Shown piece after piece: positions 5,366 through 34,859 of a stretch of DNA of 64,000 nucleotides (positions within the stretch are counted from its first letter, which is position 1; every line of letters starts with the position of its first letter). Both the position numbers and the translations under genes were made by a program. The stretch is from Methanolobus sp. ZRKC5 (GTDB taxonomy: Archaea > Halobacteriota > Methanosarcinia > Methanosarcinales > Methanosarcinaceae). A model generated the notes under the pieces. It did no database searches, was not told the origin of the DNA, and was given only the letters and a program-made list of their open reading frames with translations. The DNA lies in the NCBI RefSeq assembly GCF_038446525.1, contig NZ_CP151792.1:930001-994000 (forward strand). Reading direction: 5' to 3'.

Positions 5366-5521
5366 ATGAAAGTGAACGAAAACTGTGTAGGATGTGGCCA
5401 ATGCATTGCCTTTTGTAAATTTAATGCTATTGAAGTGAGAGGAAAGGCAACTATGACAACTGCCTGTGCAGAATGCAGAGCATGTATCGCATACTGCCCG
5501 GTTAAAGCAATTGAGGCATAG
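5366..5521 (+). CDS. Small 2[4Fe-4S] ferredoxin
   Basis: A 51-residue protein with two complete CxxCxxCxxxC motifs: cysteines 7, 10, 13, 17 and 34, 37, 40, 44. The latter segment is CAECRACIAYCPVKAIEA. It should carry two [4Fe-4S] clusters and act as a low-potential electron carrier. The stop codon (TAG) is followed after one base by the ATG of the flavoprotein at 5523, so the two are almost certainly one transcript, with the ferredoxin as dedicated electron donor. The same arrangement recurs at 10848-12235. Confidence 0.92.
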   Translation: MKVNENCVGCGQCIAFCKFNAIEVRGKATMTTACAECRACIAYCPVKAIEA

Positions 5522-5522
5522 A

Positions 5523-6803
5523 ATGAAGGCAATAATTATCGGTTCTGGACTTGGAGGGCTTTTGAGCGCAGCTAAACTTTCAAATTCAGGATATGAAGTA
5601 GAGGTCTTTGAACGTCTTCCGATAATAGGCGGAAGGTTCACCAATATACCATACAAAGGTTTCCAGCTAAGCACCGGCGCATTACATATGCTCCCACATG
5701 GACCCACCGGACCTCTTGCACAACTTCTTGAAGAGATTGGAGCAAATGTGGAAATCGTTCGTGGAAAACCGGTCTCAGTAATAAGGATTCCTAGAAAAAA
5801 AGGAGACACTGATTATAAGTACGGCCATAAAGACCTTCTTTTCGAGAACTTTAAGGTTCCATTTACCCTACTAAACCGCATCAAACTGATGTATTACGCA
5901 ATTAGCACCCGTAAAACCCCCCCTCGGGGAAAATCCTTTGAGCAATGGTGCAAAGAGCATATTGACCAGGACTGGACGTATCGTATTTCAGATTCTTTCT
6001 TTGGATGGGCACTCAGTCTGAAAGCTGCAGATATACCCGTCGAAGAAGCTTTTGCAATTATTGAGAACCTCTACCATTTTGGAGGACCGGGCGTCCCAAT
6101 GGGAGGATGCAAGGCGATCACAGATGCTCTTGCAGGCGTGATTAGATCAAACGGAGGAACAATACACACATCCTCAGAAGTTACAGGCTTTAAAATCGAA
6201 GATGAAACTATCAAAGGCGTTATTCTCAATGAGAAAGAGTATCCGGCAGATATTGTAATAAGTGATATCGGCCATGTGGCTACATCCTGCACGATAGGTG
6301 GAAATACAGAGATTTCCGGCATGGAAGAATATGCCCACAAAGCAGATACACTCAAGCCTTCTGCAGGAGTCAAGATATGCCTCTCTTCAGACAAACCACT
6401 TATAGGGCATGGAGGAGTATTACTCACACCCTACGCTAAGAGAGTTAACGGAATAAATGAGGTCACAAACATAGACCCAAAAATGGCACCGGAAGGAAAA
6501 CACCTTACTATGGCACACCAATGTGTTCACTGGAGTGACATGGATAATCTCGATAAAGAAATAGAATTGGGACTTGAGGATCTAAGAGATATTTTTGCAG
6601 GAAAGGAATATGAAGTACTTCTGATACAATCATATTCAAATGAATGGCCTGTTAACAGGTCACCCTCGGGTGCAGACCTTAACAACAAAACACCAATAAC
6701 AAACCTTTATGTAGTAGGAGATGGAGCGAAAGGTAAAGGTGGTATAGAAGTGGAAGGTATTGCGCTTGGAGTTAAGAACTGTATGCAATTAATAATAAAA
6801 TAG
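5523..6803 (+). CDS. Phytoene desaturase-like FAD-dependent oxidoreductase
   Basis: 426 residues. The N-terminus has the dinucleotide-binding motif IIGSGLGGLLSAAKLSNSG followed by EVFERLPIIGGRF, typical of the phytoene desaturase/carotenoid isomerase/amine oxidase superfamily. The C-terminus has the matching FAD motif NLYVVGDGAKGKGGIEVEG. The start at 5523 is preferred because it follows the ferredoxin stop directly and begins with the Rossmann strand; an upstream in-frame ATG would lie within the ferredoxin gene. Its substrate is unknown. With the adjacent ferredoxin it probably reduces or isomerises an isoprenoid. It ends with UAG. Confidence 0.88.
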   Translation: MKAIIIGSGLGGLLSAAKLSNSGYEVEVFERLPIIGGRFTNIPYKGFQLSTGALHMLPHGPTGPLAQLLEEIGANVEIVRGKPVSVIRIPRKKGDTDYKYGHKDLLFENFKVPFTLLNRIKLMYYAISTRKTPPRGKSFEQWCKEHIDQDWTYRISDSFFGWALSLKAADIPVEEAFAIIENLYHFGGPGVPMGGCKAITDALAGVIRSNGGTIHTSSEVTGFKIEDETIKGVILNEKEYPADIVISDIGHVATSCTIGGNTEISGMEEYAHKADTLKPSAGVKICLSSDKPLIGHGGVLLTPYAKRVNGINEVTNIDPKMAPEGKHLTMAHQCVHWSDMDNLDKEIELGLEDLRDIFAGKEYEVLLIQSYSNEWPVNRSPSGADLNNKTPITNLYVVGDGAKGKGGIEVEGIALGVKNCMQLIIK

Positions 6804-29743: not shown

Positions 29744-29974
29744 ATGAGAGACAATAGAAGCGGTGGATTCAAAGGCGGAAACGACAGGAACCAGGGCGGA
29801 TTCAGAGGTGGAAACGGTGGAGGAAACTTCAGATCCAGTGGTCCAAGAGAGATGCACAAGGCAATCTGCGCAGACTGCAAACAGGAAACTGAAGTACCAT
29901 TTAAGCCAACCGAAGGCAGACCTGTATACTGCAGGGAATGCTTCCAGAACCACAGACCACCAAAAAGATATTAG
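29744..29974 (+). CDS. RGG-rich zinc-ribbon protein
   Basis: 76 residues. The first half is Gly/Arg/Asn-rich (RGGNGGGNFRSSG), typical of RNA-binding RGG tails. The second half has CADCKQETEVPFKPTEGRP followed by VYCRECF: two CxxC pairs framing a short zinc ribbon seen in small bacterial and archaeal proteins near RNA helicases. An RNA-related or cold-response role is an inference. No neighbour lies close enough to form an operon. Confidence 0.82.
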   Translation: MRDNRSGGFKGGNDRNQGGFRGGNGGGNFRSSGPREMHKAICADCKQETEVPFKPTEGRPVYCRECFQNHRPPKRY

Positions 29975-30167: not shown

Positions 30168-31538
30168 ATGAAATCAGTAATGGGGATTTTTATTGTTCTT
30201 TTATTGGCTGTTACATCAGCAACTGTTGTAACCGCAGCATCAACAGAAGATTGTAAAGCCTGCCATCCGGGAAAATATGATGCATGGACTGCATCTCCCC
30301 ACTACATCGAATCTGTGTTAAGTAGTGATAATCCAAATGTGGAATCTTGCCTGCCCTGCCACGGAGCCAGTACAGCACGCCTATACATCAAATAGTATGG
30401 AGAAATGTTGTGGGAATCACCAGAGTGTGAAATGTGTCACCAGCCTCCTGTGGAGGGTTTTGATGCACATATCATAAGCCCTTCTAAAGCAATACCACAG
30501 TCAAACCTATCTGCAGAGCTTTGTGGGAATTGCCATACAGGGAAACATGAAGAAGTCTACGAAGAGTGGAACGAATACAATAGTATTGAGTTCGATCCGG
30601 TAACAACGGCAAGTCATTCCGAACCTTCCAACATTGAAGACAGAATCGTGCTTAACCGAAGCACCTGCGTATCCTGCAAGAGCACTGAAGGTGCCATACT
30701 GAACATTGAAGATGCTGCCCTATATGGCAGGAGCAAAGACAGAATGCCGGATACAGAGGACATAACTGAATGGAGAATTACCTGTATTGCATGCCATGCT
30801 CCGCATAGTACCGAGCTAAGAACCACACCAACACAACTATGCGCAAGCTGCCATAATTCCGACGGTGCCAATCCGGACGGAAACACAACCATTGTAAGGT
30901 ACACACAGTGGGAAATGTACAACGGGTCAATATACACCAACGGAGTGCATGCAGTCAACCTTGGCTGTGTTGATTGCCACATGGCAATGATGATAGAAGA
31001 AAATGAAACAATAGTTACAGGACACTCTTTCGATTTTGAACCCATATTGCTTTCTGACCCCAATTCGGGCAATATATGCAAGAAGTGCCATGTCATGTCC
31101 CATGACGAGATCCCGGTGGACAATGAGTGTGATGATTGCCATGATGTATCTCTCTCAAACATCTTAGAAGTGAATCAGGAAACTATCAAAAATAAACTTA
31201 AGGAACTGGAACCTCTTGAAAAAAATGCCAGTATGGCTCTTACAATGATAAGCAACAATGAAAGCTATGATGCAAAACTTGAAAACTACAACAATGCACT
31301 ATTCTACATAAGCGAAGTGGAATCTGACGGAAGCTTTGGAATGCACAATATGGAACGTGCCACAAATAACCTTGACATGGCAGAGACTTTGCTCAAATCT
31401 GTTATTGAAGAAGGAACAGCCATCATTGGTACGGATGAAACATCAACACCCGGTTTTGGAATATTTGCAGCAGTTTCACTGATAACAATAGCTGCATTTG
31501 CTTTGTGCAGGGAAAGGAAAAGACGGAAAGAACACTGA
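30168..31538 (+). CDS. Secreted multihaem cytochrome c with an in-frame UAG codon
   Basis: From ATG 30168 (GGTGAT site just upstream) one frame runs to 31538, interrupted only by TAG at 30393-30395 (codon 76). It begins with a signal peptide (to about residue 24). Two CxxCH motifs precede the UAG (CKACH 29-33, CLPCH 61-65). After it come CEMCH, CGNCH, CVSCK, CIACH, CASCH, CVDCH, CKKCH and CDDCH, giving nine CxxCH and one CxxCK. The C-terminus is TPGFGIFAAVSLITIAAF plus a basic tail, a PGF-CTERM archaeosortase signal. The frame and haem spacing continue across the UAG without loss, so it is either read through (pyrrolysine or suppression) or a very recent nonsense mutation. If not read through, only a 75-residue fragment is made. 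Confidence 0.8.
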
Positions 31539-31629: not shown

Positions 31630-32704
31630 TAGTTATTAACCAAACTATTAATACTAATTGAGTATAACAATACTGTATGGCTAAACCCGAACAAATTCCG
31701 ATAAAGCATCATCTTTCATCAGAAGAATTGCTTAAACATATTAAGTCATTAGAGAAAGACACACGAGTTCTACAACGTTTATATTTTGTTAAACATCGTT
31801 ATGAAGGAGCTTCTGTTAATGAAGCAGCTAAACTTGTAGGGATATCAAAACCCGTTGCATATCAATGGCAAGAGCGGTGGAATCAAGACGGATATGAAGG
31901 ATTAAAGCCTAGGTTTTCAGGAGGATGTCCTTCCAAACTCACTGATGATCAAAAAGAAAAACTAAGGGACATGTTACATGAAAGAGATGATTGGTCTACA
32001 AAAGAAGTTCAGGAACTCATTTATAATGAATTTAAGGTTCAATACACCATTAAGCAAATACTAGTGATCTTGAAGAAGTTTGGCATGCATCATGCCAAAC
32101 CATATGCGCATGATTATCGAAGACCACAAAATGCAGAAGATTGTTTAAAAAAAACTTACCGTTAATCGATGATGATTGCGTTATCGGATTTCTTGATGAA
32201 TCATCTCCCCAAACAACATCAAATACGGTTCGTTTATGGTCTTTCAATAAACCTGCCATCTTCAAAAACACAACCAGGATAAAAGCAAACTCCTTCGGTT
32301 TTTATGCATTGAATGGTAATTCTGTTATTGATTTCAAAGAACATTCAACCAAGGAGGATGTATGTTCGTTTTTATCAGCTGTTAAAAACAATAACATGGG
32401 AGAGAGAATCGTAATTATTCTCGACAATTTTAGATCACATCGAGCAAAATATACAGTGGAATTTGCACAGGCAAATGATATTGAATTGGTCTATTTACCT
32501 CCATATTCACCCGACTTGAATCCAATCGAATTCATCTGGAAAAGTGTCAAAAGAATTATTTCTCGCAATTTTGTGAAAGATCTGGATCATATGAAAAATC
32601 TGATTGCTGAGGAGTTTATTGATTGTTCATCAAAGATTAGCTTCGCAAGAAAATGGATTGAGACATTTCTGGATGATAAGTTAAAAATGTTAAGTTAGTA
32701 ACTA
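31630..32704 (+). mobile_element. IS630-family insertion sequence (1075 bp)
   Basis: Imperfect inverted repeats TAGTTATTAAC (31630) and GTTAGTAACTA (ending 32704) bound a two-frame transposase. TA dinucleotides flank both sides (31628-31629 and 32705-32706), matching the TA target duplication of IS630/Tc1 elements. It is inserted between the cytochrome terminator and kefB and does not break a visible gene. Confidence 0.88.
31677..32698 (+). CDS. IS630-family transposase expressed by -1 frameshift
   Basis: The first frame (31677-32165, 162 aa) holds the helix-turn-helix region with NEAAKLVGISKPVAYQWQER. The second frame (from about 32150 to 32698) holds the DDE domain: VIGFLDESSPQ (D), VIILDNFRSHRAK (D) and PPYSPDLNPIEFIWKSVKR (E). 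The frames overlap at an A8 run (TTTAAAAAAAAC, 32144-32155), and the second frame is -1 relative to the first, the usual programmed-frameshift arrangement. The fused protein would be about 340 residues, normal for the family. Confidence 0.9.
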
Positions 32705-32852: not shown

Positions 32853-34859
32853 ATGGAACTGACCTTATTCACAGATATCGGGATAATTTTCGGACTCTCT
32901 ATAATCATCTTGCTGCTATTCACCAGGATGAAACTACCTTCTGTATTGGGATTCCTTGTTACTGGTATGCTGGCAGGCCCGCACTGGTTAGGAATAATTA
33001 GCAGTGTGCATGAAGTAGAAGCACTTGCAGAAATAGGCATTATTCTTCTTCTCTTCACTATAGGCGTAGAAATGTCTATCAAAGAACTCTGGGACATAAA
33101 AAGATCAGTCCTGCTTGGCGGAACCCTGCAGGTAACAACAACGATCCTGGTGGTTTACTATATTTGTATCTTTTTTGGCCTAAGCTCAGGAACAGCACTA
33201 TTCATAGGTTTTCTCATATCATTGAGCAGTACTGCTATCGTTCTCAAATTATTTCAGGAAAAAGCAGAGATTGACACACCACACGGAAAAACATCCCTTG
33301 CAATACTGATATTTCAGGATGTAATTATCGTCCCGATGATACTCATAACACCAATAATAGCAGGTGCCTCTATAGAATCTATCGACACATTGCCCCTATT
33401 CCTGCTCAAAGCTATCGGGACAATAGCACTGGTCATTGTAAGTGCAAGATGGATAATTCCTGCATTACTATTCCAGATAGCAAAAACAAGGAACAGGGAA
33501 TTGTTCCTTTTGAGTATCGTTTTCATTTGTCTGGCTACTGCCTGGCTCACTTCCAGTATCGGATTATCACTTGCCCTTGGAGCTTTCATGGCAGGACTTA
33601 TTATTTCTGAATCTGAGTACAGTCATCAGGCCATGGGTAATATCATGCCATTTAGAGACGTCTTCATGAGTTTTTTCTTTGTTTCCATCGGCATGTTGCT
33701 GGACATCAGTTTCTTTACAAATAATGTAGTTTACCTGCTTGCTCTGGCGCTTGTGGTCATTGTCATAAAGTCTGCTACTGCCAGCCTTGCAACATTCATC
33801 CTGGGATATCCACTGCGTACAATAATCATCACAGGGCTGACACTTGCACAGGTTGGAGAATTCTCATTCGTGCTCTCAACCTTTGGTCTTGAATATTCCC
33901 TTCTTGACCAGAACATGTATCAGCAATTCCTGGCAGTTTCCATCATCACAATGGCGCTAACTCCCTTCATAACAGCATCTTCATATGGTATTTCAGATAG
34001 AGTAGTTAAAGCCGTCCCATATCAGAAACTCATTAATGGGTTCTACGCGAACGGTCTCACTGCAAAGAATGATGATGAAAAAATAAAGGACCACCTGATC
34101 ATAATTGGGTATGGATTCAACGGCAAAACTTTATCGCATGCAGCGAGGAATGCAGGAATACCATATGTGATAATAGAAACAAACCCTGAAACAGTACGTC
34201 AGGAAAAGAAAAAAGGTGAAAAGATACACTATGGTGATGCAAGCCACGAGGCAGTACTTAATTCTACAAACATTGATTCTGCAAGAATACTAATCATAGG
34301 TATATCAGATCTTGTCGCTACAAGAAAGATAATCGACATGGCGAAAAGACTGAATCCAGATATCTACATAATCGCCAGAACCCGCTATGTAAGTGAAATG
34401 AAAAGACTCAGCGATCTTGGTGCAGATGAGGTAATTCCTGAGGAATACGAAACATCTGTTGAGATATTTGTTCGCCTGCTAAAAAAGTACCTCGTTCCCG
34501 AGGAAGACATTGACATATTCACAAGGGAGATACGTGCAAACGGATACTGCATGTTGAGGAAAGCCTATTCAGAAGAACAGGAAAGAAGCTTTAACTTAAA
34601 AGATGAGCTTCCGGGTGTGGAAGTCAGTACTTTAAAAGTAGGTGAAAGTTGTTTTGCAAACGGAAGAACGCTCAAGGACCTTAATATAAGGACAAAGCAC
34701 AAAGCAACCATTCTGGCAATCCGCAGGAATGACACCACCATCACAAACCCTGACGGCGATATTTCCATATATTCAGGAGATATCTGTATCATTTTTGGAA
34801 AGCCAGAAGACCTACATAATGTTAGGGAATTATTCAAGAGACCATCCTGTGAAATGTAA
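32853..34859 (+). CDS. KefB/CPA2-type monovalent cation:proton antiporter with TrkA domains
   Basis: 668 residues. About twelve transmembrane segments occupy residues 1-385 (Na+/H+ exchanger domain, with LLLFTIGVEMSIKELW and SLSSTAIVLKLF). A Rossmann TrkA_N domain begins near 410 (HLIIIGYGFNGKTLSHAARN), and a TrkA_C domain occupies about 580-668. Such proteins export K+ or Na+ in exchange for H+. The gene is monocistronic and complements the trkAH uptake system at 16-19 kb. Confidence 0.93.
   Translation: MELTLFTDIGIIFGLSIIILLLFTRMKLPSVLGFLVTGMLAGPHWLGIISSVHEVEALAEIGIILLLFTIGVEMSIKELWDIKRSVLLGGTLQVTTTILVVYYICIFFGLSSGTALFIGFLISLSSTAIVLKLFQEKAEIDTPHGKTSLAILIFQDVIIVPMILITPIIAGASIESIDTLPLFLLKAIGTIALVIVSARWIIPALLFQIAKTRNRELFLLSIVFICLATAWLTSSIGLSLALGAFMAGLIISESEYSHQAMGNIMPFRDVFMSFFFVSIGMLLDISFFTNNVVYLLALALVVIVIKSATASLATFILGYPLRTIIITGLTLAQVGEFSFVLSTFGLEYSLLDQNMYQQFLAVSIITMALTPFITASSYGISDRVVKAVPYQKLINGFYANGLTAKNDDEKIKDHLIIIGYGFNGKTLSHAARNAGIPYVIIETNPETVRQEKKKGEKIHYGDASHEAVLNSTNIDSARILIIGISDLVATRKIIDMAKRLNPDIYIIARTRYVSEMKRLSDLGADEVIPEEYETSVEIFVRLLKKYLVPEEDIDIFTREIRANGYCMLRKAYSEEQERSFNLKDELPGVEVSTLKVGESCFANGRTLKDLNIRTKHKATILAIRRNDTTITNPDGDISIYSGDICIIFGKPEDLHNVRELFKRPSCEM

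Follow-up and report, generated by a model that had tools for sequence, protein, structure and literature searches.

The Cytochrome Gene and Its Surroundings

The window, by which the whole analysed stretch of 64,000 nucleotides is meant, contains a gene for a multihaem c-type cytochrome whose features are listed in Table 1. Translation yielded a single frame, in which the UAG was counted as a residue. The only break was the TAG at codon 76; no frameshift was found, and the frame ended normally at TGA. Nine CxxCH motifs and one CxxCK motif (CVSCK, residues 167–171) were counted, preceded by a signal peptide, so that the description given in an earlier note on this DNA, made from the sequence alone, was borne out by the translation.

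The same note had assigned a PGF-CTERM anchor to the protein, and this was confirmed only in part. A hydrophobic C-terminal segment, beginning after STPGFG, is present and forms a plausible membrane segment, but its match to PGF-CTERM was weak (TIGR04126, 11.3 bits compared to a cut-off of 24.5), and the domain was therefore left unconfirmed by this score.

A small protein with the pattern CxxC-x17-CxxC (TIGR04272) is encoded at 29744–29974, directly upstream of the cytochrome gene, and is found upstream of it in the Methanolobus MAG Soudan_27 (G014) too. Between the cytochrome and the KefB-type antiporter, an IS630-family transposase occupies positions 31677–32698, split into the overlapping frames 31677–32165 and 32141–32698. 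It is absent at the corresponding place in MAG Soudan_27.

Table 1. Coordinates of the cytochrome gene, its sequence features and the conserved neighbouring gene (positions within the window).
Feature	Position	Strand	Basis
Multihaem c-type cytochrome gene, 456 codons, TGA stop	30168..31538	+	Translation, orthologues, Pfam cytochrome matches
Signal peptide, residues 1–23 (...VVTA/ASTEDC)	30168..30236	+	Sequence reading; like hydrophobic N-terminus in all orthologues
Haem motif 1, CKACH	30252..30266	+	
Haem motif 2, CLPCH; last before the UAG, in the extra segment missing from eight-haem relatives	30348..30362	+	
In-frame TAG, codon 76, proposed pyrrolysine	30393..30395	+	TAG at the homologous codon in relatives
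Haem motif 3, CEMCH; first Cys 11 residues past the UAG in every TAG bearer	30426..30440	+	
Haem motif 4, CGNCH	30522..30536	+	
CVSCK, catalytic-haem motif of NrfA/ONR type with lysine as ligand; lost by deletion from M. bombayensis and the Met clade	30666..30680	+	
Haem motif 6, CIACH	30783..30797	+	
Haem motif 7, CASCH	30840..30854	+	
Haem motif 8, CVDCH	30966..30980	+	
Haem motif 9, CKKCH; Methanolobus orthologues only	31077..31091	+	
Haem motif 10, CDDCH	31128..31142	+	
C-terminal hydrophobic anchor (PGFGIFAAVSLITIAAFALC), then basic residues	31446..31511	+	Sequence reading; weak PGF-CTERM match
KefB-type cation/proton antiporter, conserved neighbour marking orthologous Methanolobus loci	32853..34859	+	Name from sequence reading

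Pyrrolysine Decoding Genes and Use of UAG as a Stop

The host genome is complete (3.05 Mb), and its relatives by search were Methanolobus. The genes pylD, pylC, pylB and pylS were located at G000:C1:1683781–1688094, each scoring above its curated cut-off, and the gene for tRNA-Pyl with the anticodon CUA (cta) at G000:C1:1713070–1713141. ARAGORN did not find tRNA-Pyl in the pyl operon itself, the gene being about 25 kb away. Two ATP-grasp genes matched in a PylC_N Pfam search were rejected as unrelated; the true pylC adjoins pylS.

A few kilobases from pylDCBS lies mtmB with its own in-frame TAG (GMGIOGPETS). Methylamine use through MtmB requires UAG to be decoded as pyrrolysine. Given mtmB and the pyl genes, such decoding must, as judged from the gene content, take place in this organism. 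The pylS gene was found in all 15 genomes tested, including every TAG-bearing genome.

UAG was also confirmed as a stop codon, as had been stated before: the genes at 5366–5521 and 5523–6803 both end in TAG. Sampling of 264 kb of the genome gave 192 non-overlapping ORFs with a length of 150 aa or more, of which 21 (about 11%) were terminated by TAG, mostly with a further stop within 15 codons. UAG is a used but minor terminator in this genome, and its decoding is therefore not unconditional. The archaeal Pyl code is recognized by the absence or near absence of UAG as a terminator, a state which this genome does not show.

Conservation of the TAG Codon

Orthologues were sought by six-frame search with stops read through. 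A single TAG was observed in the orthologues of M. profundi (G016), M. bombayensis (G009) and MAG Soudan_27, and in the Methanolobus copies it occupies the identical codon (RLYIK-O-YGEML, RLYSK-O-YGEVV, RLYSI-O-YGEVV and HLYSR-O-YGEVV). Identity to the host cytochrome was 67% for M. profundi, about 50% for M. bombayensis and about 40% for the second genus described below. In M. profundi and M. bombayensis, the genes are intact with the TAG retained. Decayed copies in close relatives had been put forward as grounds for rejecting a pyrrolysine codon; the copy of MAG Soudan_27 is indeed a pseudogene, with a TAA and a large internal deletion, yet its TAG was kept. None of the other refuting outcomes named in the note came up.

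Four Methanolobus orthologues (G001, G006, G019 and G025, the last being M. vulcani PL 12/M) carry ATG (Met) at codon 76, within RLYSx-M-YGEV. Since this ATG is in frame, the position is coding. The question raised earlier of whether orthologues have UAG or a sense codon here is thus answered by both, UAG in several species and Met in others. In G004, only a cytochrome remnant with MYGEV was left. A KefB-type antiporter (68–90% identity in seven relatives) adjoins all Methanolobus orthologues, which places them at the same locus.

A family-wide search revealed a homologue with a single TAG in three species (G081, G082 and G083) of a second Methanosarcinaceae genus, which may, as a guess, be the Methanosarcina sp. 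MTP4 group. The locus differs from that in Methanolobus. The TAG falls in the same alignment column (WDR-O-YANVDVKPSACEVCH), with no gap up to the next haem motif; the distance from TAG to this motif was constant in all bearers (Table 1), and Tyr directly follows the TAG in each of them. In the paralogues from Methanolobus and genus g8, the column is occupied by Glu (GAA or GAG).

TAG at the homologous codon was thus found in six intact genes from two genera, the host gene included, and in one pseudogene. It was evident that a TAG shared at one codon across two genera is beyond chance and is not a fresh mutation. The cytochrome family itself was confined to the Methanosarcinaceae (33 genomes, among 238 genomes of the class).

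A PYLIS-like RNA structure common to both genera was sought downstream of the UAG and was not found. The Methanolobus TAG copies folded somewhat better than the Met copies, with no fold in common with the second genus, and an Rfam search gave no match. Pyrrolysine decoding is held to work without PYLIS (PMC8211752).

Two other occurrences of TAG were noted during these searches. In a related nine-haem gene of G097 (L070), TAG replaces a conserved Trp codon in the haem-2 segment; with its CxxCK damaged and a TGA in frame as well, this gene is a decaying copy, in contrast to the conserved UAG. At L048:5396–5758, about 50 codons are duplicated in tandem, with TAG at the same place in each copy (VIRTHELLRDOALNLAPLAWLGNPR...); the repeat is probably non-coding.

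Selection and History of the Codon

The dN/dS ratio was determined by the Nei–Gojobori method, upstream and downstream of the TAG separately. Downstream values were 0.16 for the host compared to M. profundi, 0.15 compared to M. bombayensis and 0.25–0.31 within the second genus, and upstream values were close to these in TAG-bearing pairs; the Methanolobus ratios are rough, as dS among these species reached 1.4–2.6, near saturation. Purifying selection acts on the cytochrome on both sides of the UAG.

Of the 393 codons that aligned in all six intact bearers, 21 were the same throughout; these comprise the TAG, haem His and Cys codons, Trp codons and further fixed residues. As the presence of TAG was the reason for choosing these six, the count shows how deeply the codon is retained and does not serve as a test.

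In a phylogeny of 32 proteins, TAG bearers were located in two places, and a single TAG clade was rejected (p-AU 5e-43). About three changes at codon 76 are required by this tree. Moderate support (89/79) was obtained for a placement of the Met copies within the TAG group of Methanolobus, and the order within this genus reads as TAG first and Met later. The TAG of the two genera may go back to a common ancestor, with replacement by Glu or Met and loss of the haem-2 segment in other lineages, or may have been gained separately.

Protein Family and Residue 76

Pfam and PDB sequence searches with HMMER placed the cytochrome with NrfA (2j7a), octahaem nitrite reductases (2ot4, 8rv0), OcwA (6qvm) and 6i5b. 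Profile matches extended over the haem core and the C-terminal helices, with E-values of 7e-22 for 6i5b, 9e-21 for 6qvm, 2e-7 for NrfA and 6e-7 for ONR. Features in common are the CxxCK motif and a C-terminal helical segment with GxHN. The protein is predicted to be an exported, membrane-anchored cytochrome of the NrfA/octahaem-nitrite-reductase/OcwA kind; nitrite reductase or any other reductase activity of the archaeal proteins is putative. A recoded stop codon was not seen in any of these relatives.

Motif 2 is missing from the eight-haem relatives, compared to which the host protein has two extra motifs, and the UAG is located within the additional stretch that separates motif 2 from motif 3. 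The host protein, M. profundi and the second genus have all retained the CxxCK motif. Since it was lost in M. bombayensis, a UAG bearer, and in the Met clade, catalysis and the UAG do not go together. From the orthologues of M. bombayensis and the Met clade (L018, L019, L020, L021 and L027), about 45 residues including CxxCK are gone while nine CxxCH motifs were kept; the putative catalytic haem was thus dropped cleanly from a multihaem protein.

Eight free His residues were invariant among 15 aligned proteins, a number equal to that of the shared CxxCH haems, and the ninth CxxCH of the Methanolobus proteins is accompanied by H312. By this counting, a haem-ligand role for residue 76 is unneeded. 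The AlphaFold model had a mean pLDDT of 43.7, too low for residue 76 to be placed relative to the haems.

The chemical dissimilarity of pyrrolysine, Met and Glu speaks for a tolerant position, while recurrence at the same codon in two genera stands against this view. Most likely, residue 76 would lie at the surface or in a packing contact beside the additional haem 2, at a site able to accept pyrrolysine, Met or Glu, and a part in catalysis or haem ligation is less probable.

Discussion

The earlier proposal of an in-frame UAG as a possible pyrrolysine codon gained support from the pyl genes, the TAG codons of the orthologues and purifying selection. Very probably, the cytochrome gene is intact and its UAG at codon 76 is translated as pyrrolysine by the host PylRS–tRNA-Pyl(CUA) pair. 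The demonstrated basis comprises the frame, the decoding genes, the conservation of UAG in two genera and purifying selection on both of its sides.

According to the proposed mechanism, the PylRS–tRNA-Pyl(CUA) pair would decode codon 76 in competition with termination. Translation would pass the UAG, the residue inserted would be pyrrolysine, and the full-length haem protein would be produced when pyrrolysine is available. Failed decoding would leave a precursor of 75 residues with two haem motifs and without the anchor. Counter-points to decoding are the termination of sampled ORFs by UAG, the lack of a PYLIS-like structure common to both genera, the decayed copies in MAG Soudan_27 and G004, and the sense codons of relatives, which have Met (four of the orthologues) or Glu (the paralogues); in view of these replacements, pyrrolysine at position 76 is not indispensable.

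That residue 76 or its codon has a selected function is a tentative proposal, which we consider somewhat less probable than its opposite. Equally tentative is the idea that the UAG was kept, or arose twice, because pyrrolysine tunes the extra haem or couples cytochrome output to methylamine growth. A sense codon at a tolerant site may also have changed to UAG, been suppressed by tRNA-Pyl and drifted, in which case pyrrolysine would be inserted without any special role, and we rate this at slightly below an even chance. The lineages do differ at position 76 (Met, Glu or pyrrolysine); the roughly three changes on the tree, with a single TAG clade rejected, imply repeated gain or repeated loss of TAG; the CxxCH haems are already matched in number by conserved free His; and Thg1 (tRNA-His guanylyltransferase) of M. 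acetivorans provides a precedent (PMC2933860, PMC8211752). However, the same-codon TAG in two genera is hard to obtain from a single neutral event, TAG was retained between Methanolobus species in spite of their near-saturated dS, and its conversion to ATG (Met) needs more than one substitution. A UAG acting as a gate, by which cytochrome output would be tied to pyrrolysine supply and methylamine growth, the product being the complete anchored cytochrome or else a small, soluble protein with two haems, appears unlikely. Its appeal lies in the position of the UAG after haem motif 2 in all bearers, where termination would leave an exported two-haem stub, in the use of UAG as a live terminator by the host and in the substrate-dependent UAG decoding known in Acetohalobium (PMC8211752), but the Met orthologues at the same locus manage without a gate. 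The likelihoods given for drift at a tolerant site and for the gate are conditional on the UAG being decoded and are not to be added to that of the main explanation.

The remaining alternatives fared worse. A role of pyrrolysine 76 at haem 2, where it would modify the haem or replace Met as its axial ligand, would agree with Met, a usual haem ligand, at codon 76 in four orthologues; it is very unlikely, as the eight invariant free His match the eight shared haems, H312 pairs with the ninth, and paralogues retaining haem 2 have Glu. If the gene were dying and its TAG came from a nonsense mutation or a sequencing error, the alternative named in the earlier note, the UAG would simply stop translation. 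The family does decay in some species, as seen in the broken copy of MAG Soudan_27, the remnant in G004 and the G097 relative with its TGA and a TAG elsewhere; nevertheless, six species share the TAG in assemblies made independently and with frames otherwise open, which together with dN/dS well below 1 downstream of it makes this explanation highly improbable. Hardly credible at all are two separate proteins, a secreted dihaem product ending at the UAG and a downstream product started internally. An ATG does occur four codons past the TAG in the host genome, but relatives have a Val codon (GTG, GTA, GTC) or GTT instead, the internal product would have no signal peptide, whereas attachment of haem to CxxCH takes place on the outer side of the membrane, and the Met orthologues form one continuous frame.

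With decoding as pyrrolysine as the preferred explanation, the cytochrome joins the UAG-encoded pyrrolysine proteins as a new protein class with unusual conservation. Like the cytochrome UAG, the UAG codons of MtmB, MtbB and MttB are decoded by PylRS/tRNA-Pyl in Methanosarcinaceae and conserved across genera. In those corrinoid methyltransferases, which are cytoplasmic, pyrrolysine belongs to the active site, whereas the cytochrome is a predicted exported haem protein in which pyrrolysine is replaceable by Met or Glu. A 2025 Science paper reportedly describes an archaeal Pyl code with over a thousand Pyl proteins, many of them non-methyltransferase, and is said to take UAG as always sense, in contrast to the host genome with its UAG-terminated ORFs. 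The cytochrome gene might be on its list of Pyl proteins.

The pyrrolysine proteins named in a review are methylamine methyltransferases, some transposases and Thg1 only (PMC8211752); beyond these, the literature consulted offered only predictions. Thg1 and the amber-bearing transposases resemble the cytochrome in having pyrrolysine or UAG outside methyltransferases. The UAG of Thg1, however, is limited to M. acetivorans, inessential for activity (PMC2933860) and held to be neutral, while the cytochrome UAG is common to two genera. A multihaem c-type cytochrome of Geobacter with a conserved in-frame stop, for which similar reasoning was used, is reported in PMC1914089; there, the codon is TGA, a selenocysteine candidate, in Bacteria with unrelated decoding machinery. 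The accessible parts of the computational surveys PMC1242214, PMC1914089 and PMC3639795 do not name a pyrrolysine cytochrome, and none was found in a literature search of limited coverage that included few subscription papers.

A cytochrome UAG that two genera keep at one codon, and in whose place close relatives have Met or Glu, represents a natural experiment on pyrrolysine outside methyltransferases. It is directly testable, as cultured species with UAG (M. profundi, M. bombayensis) and with Met (M. vulcani) are available. If pyrrolysine proved to have a role under selection in an exported redox protein, the cytochrome would be, to our knowledge, the first case beyond the methylamine methyltransferases in which its functional use is conserved. 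UAG-bearing cytochrome genes are probably split or discarded by gene callers, and inventories of electron transfer in methylotrophic methanogens may therefore miss these cytochromes.
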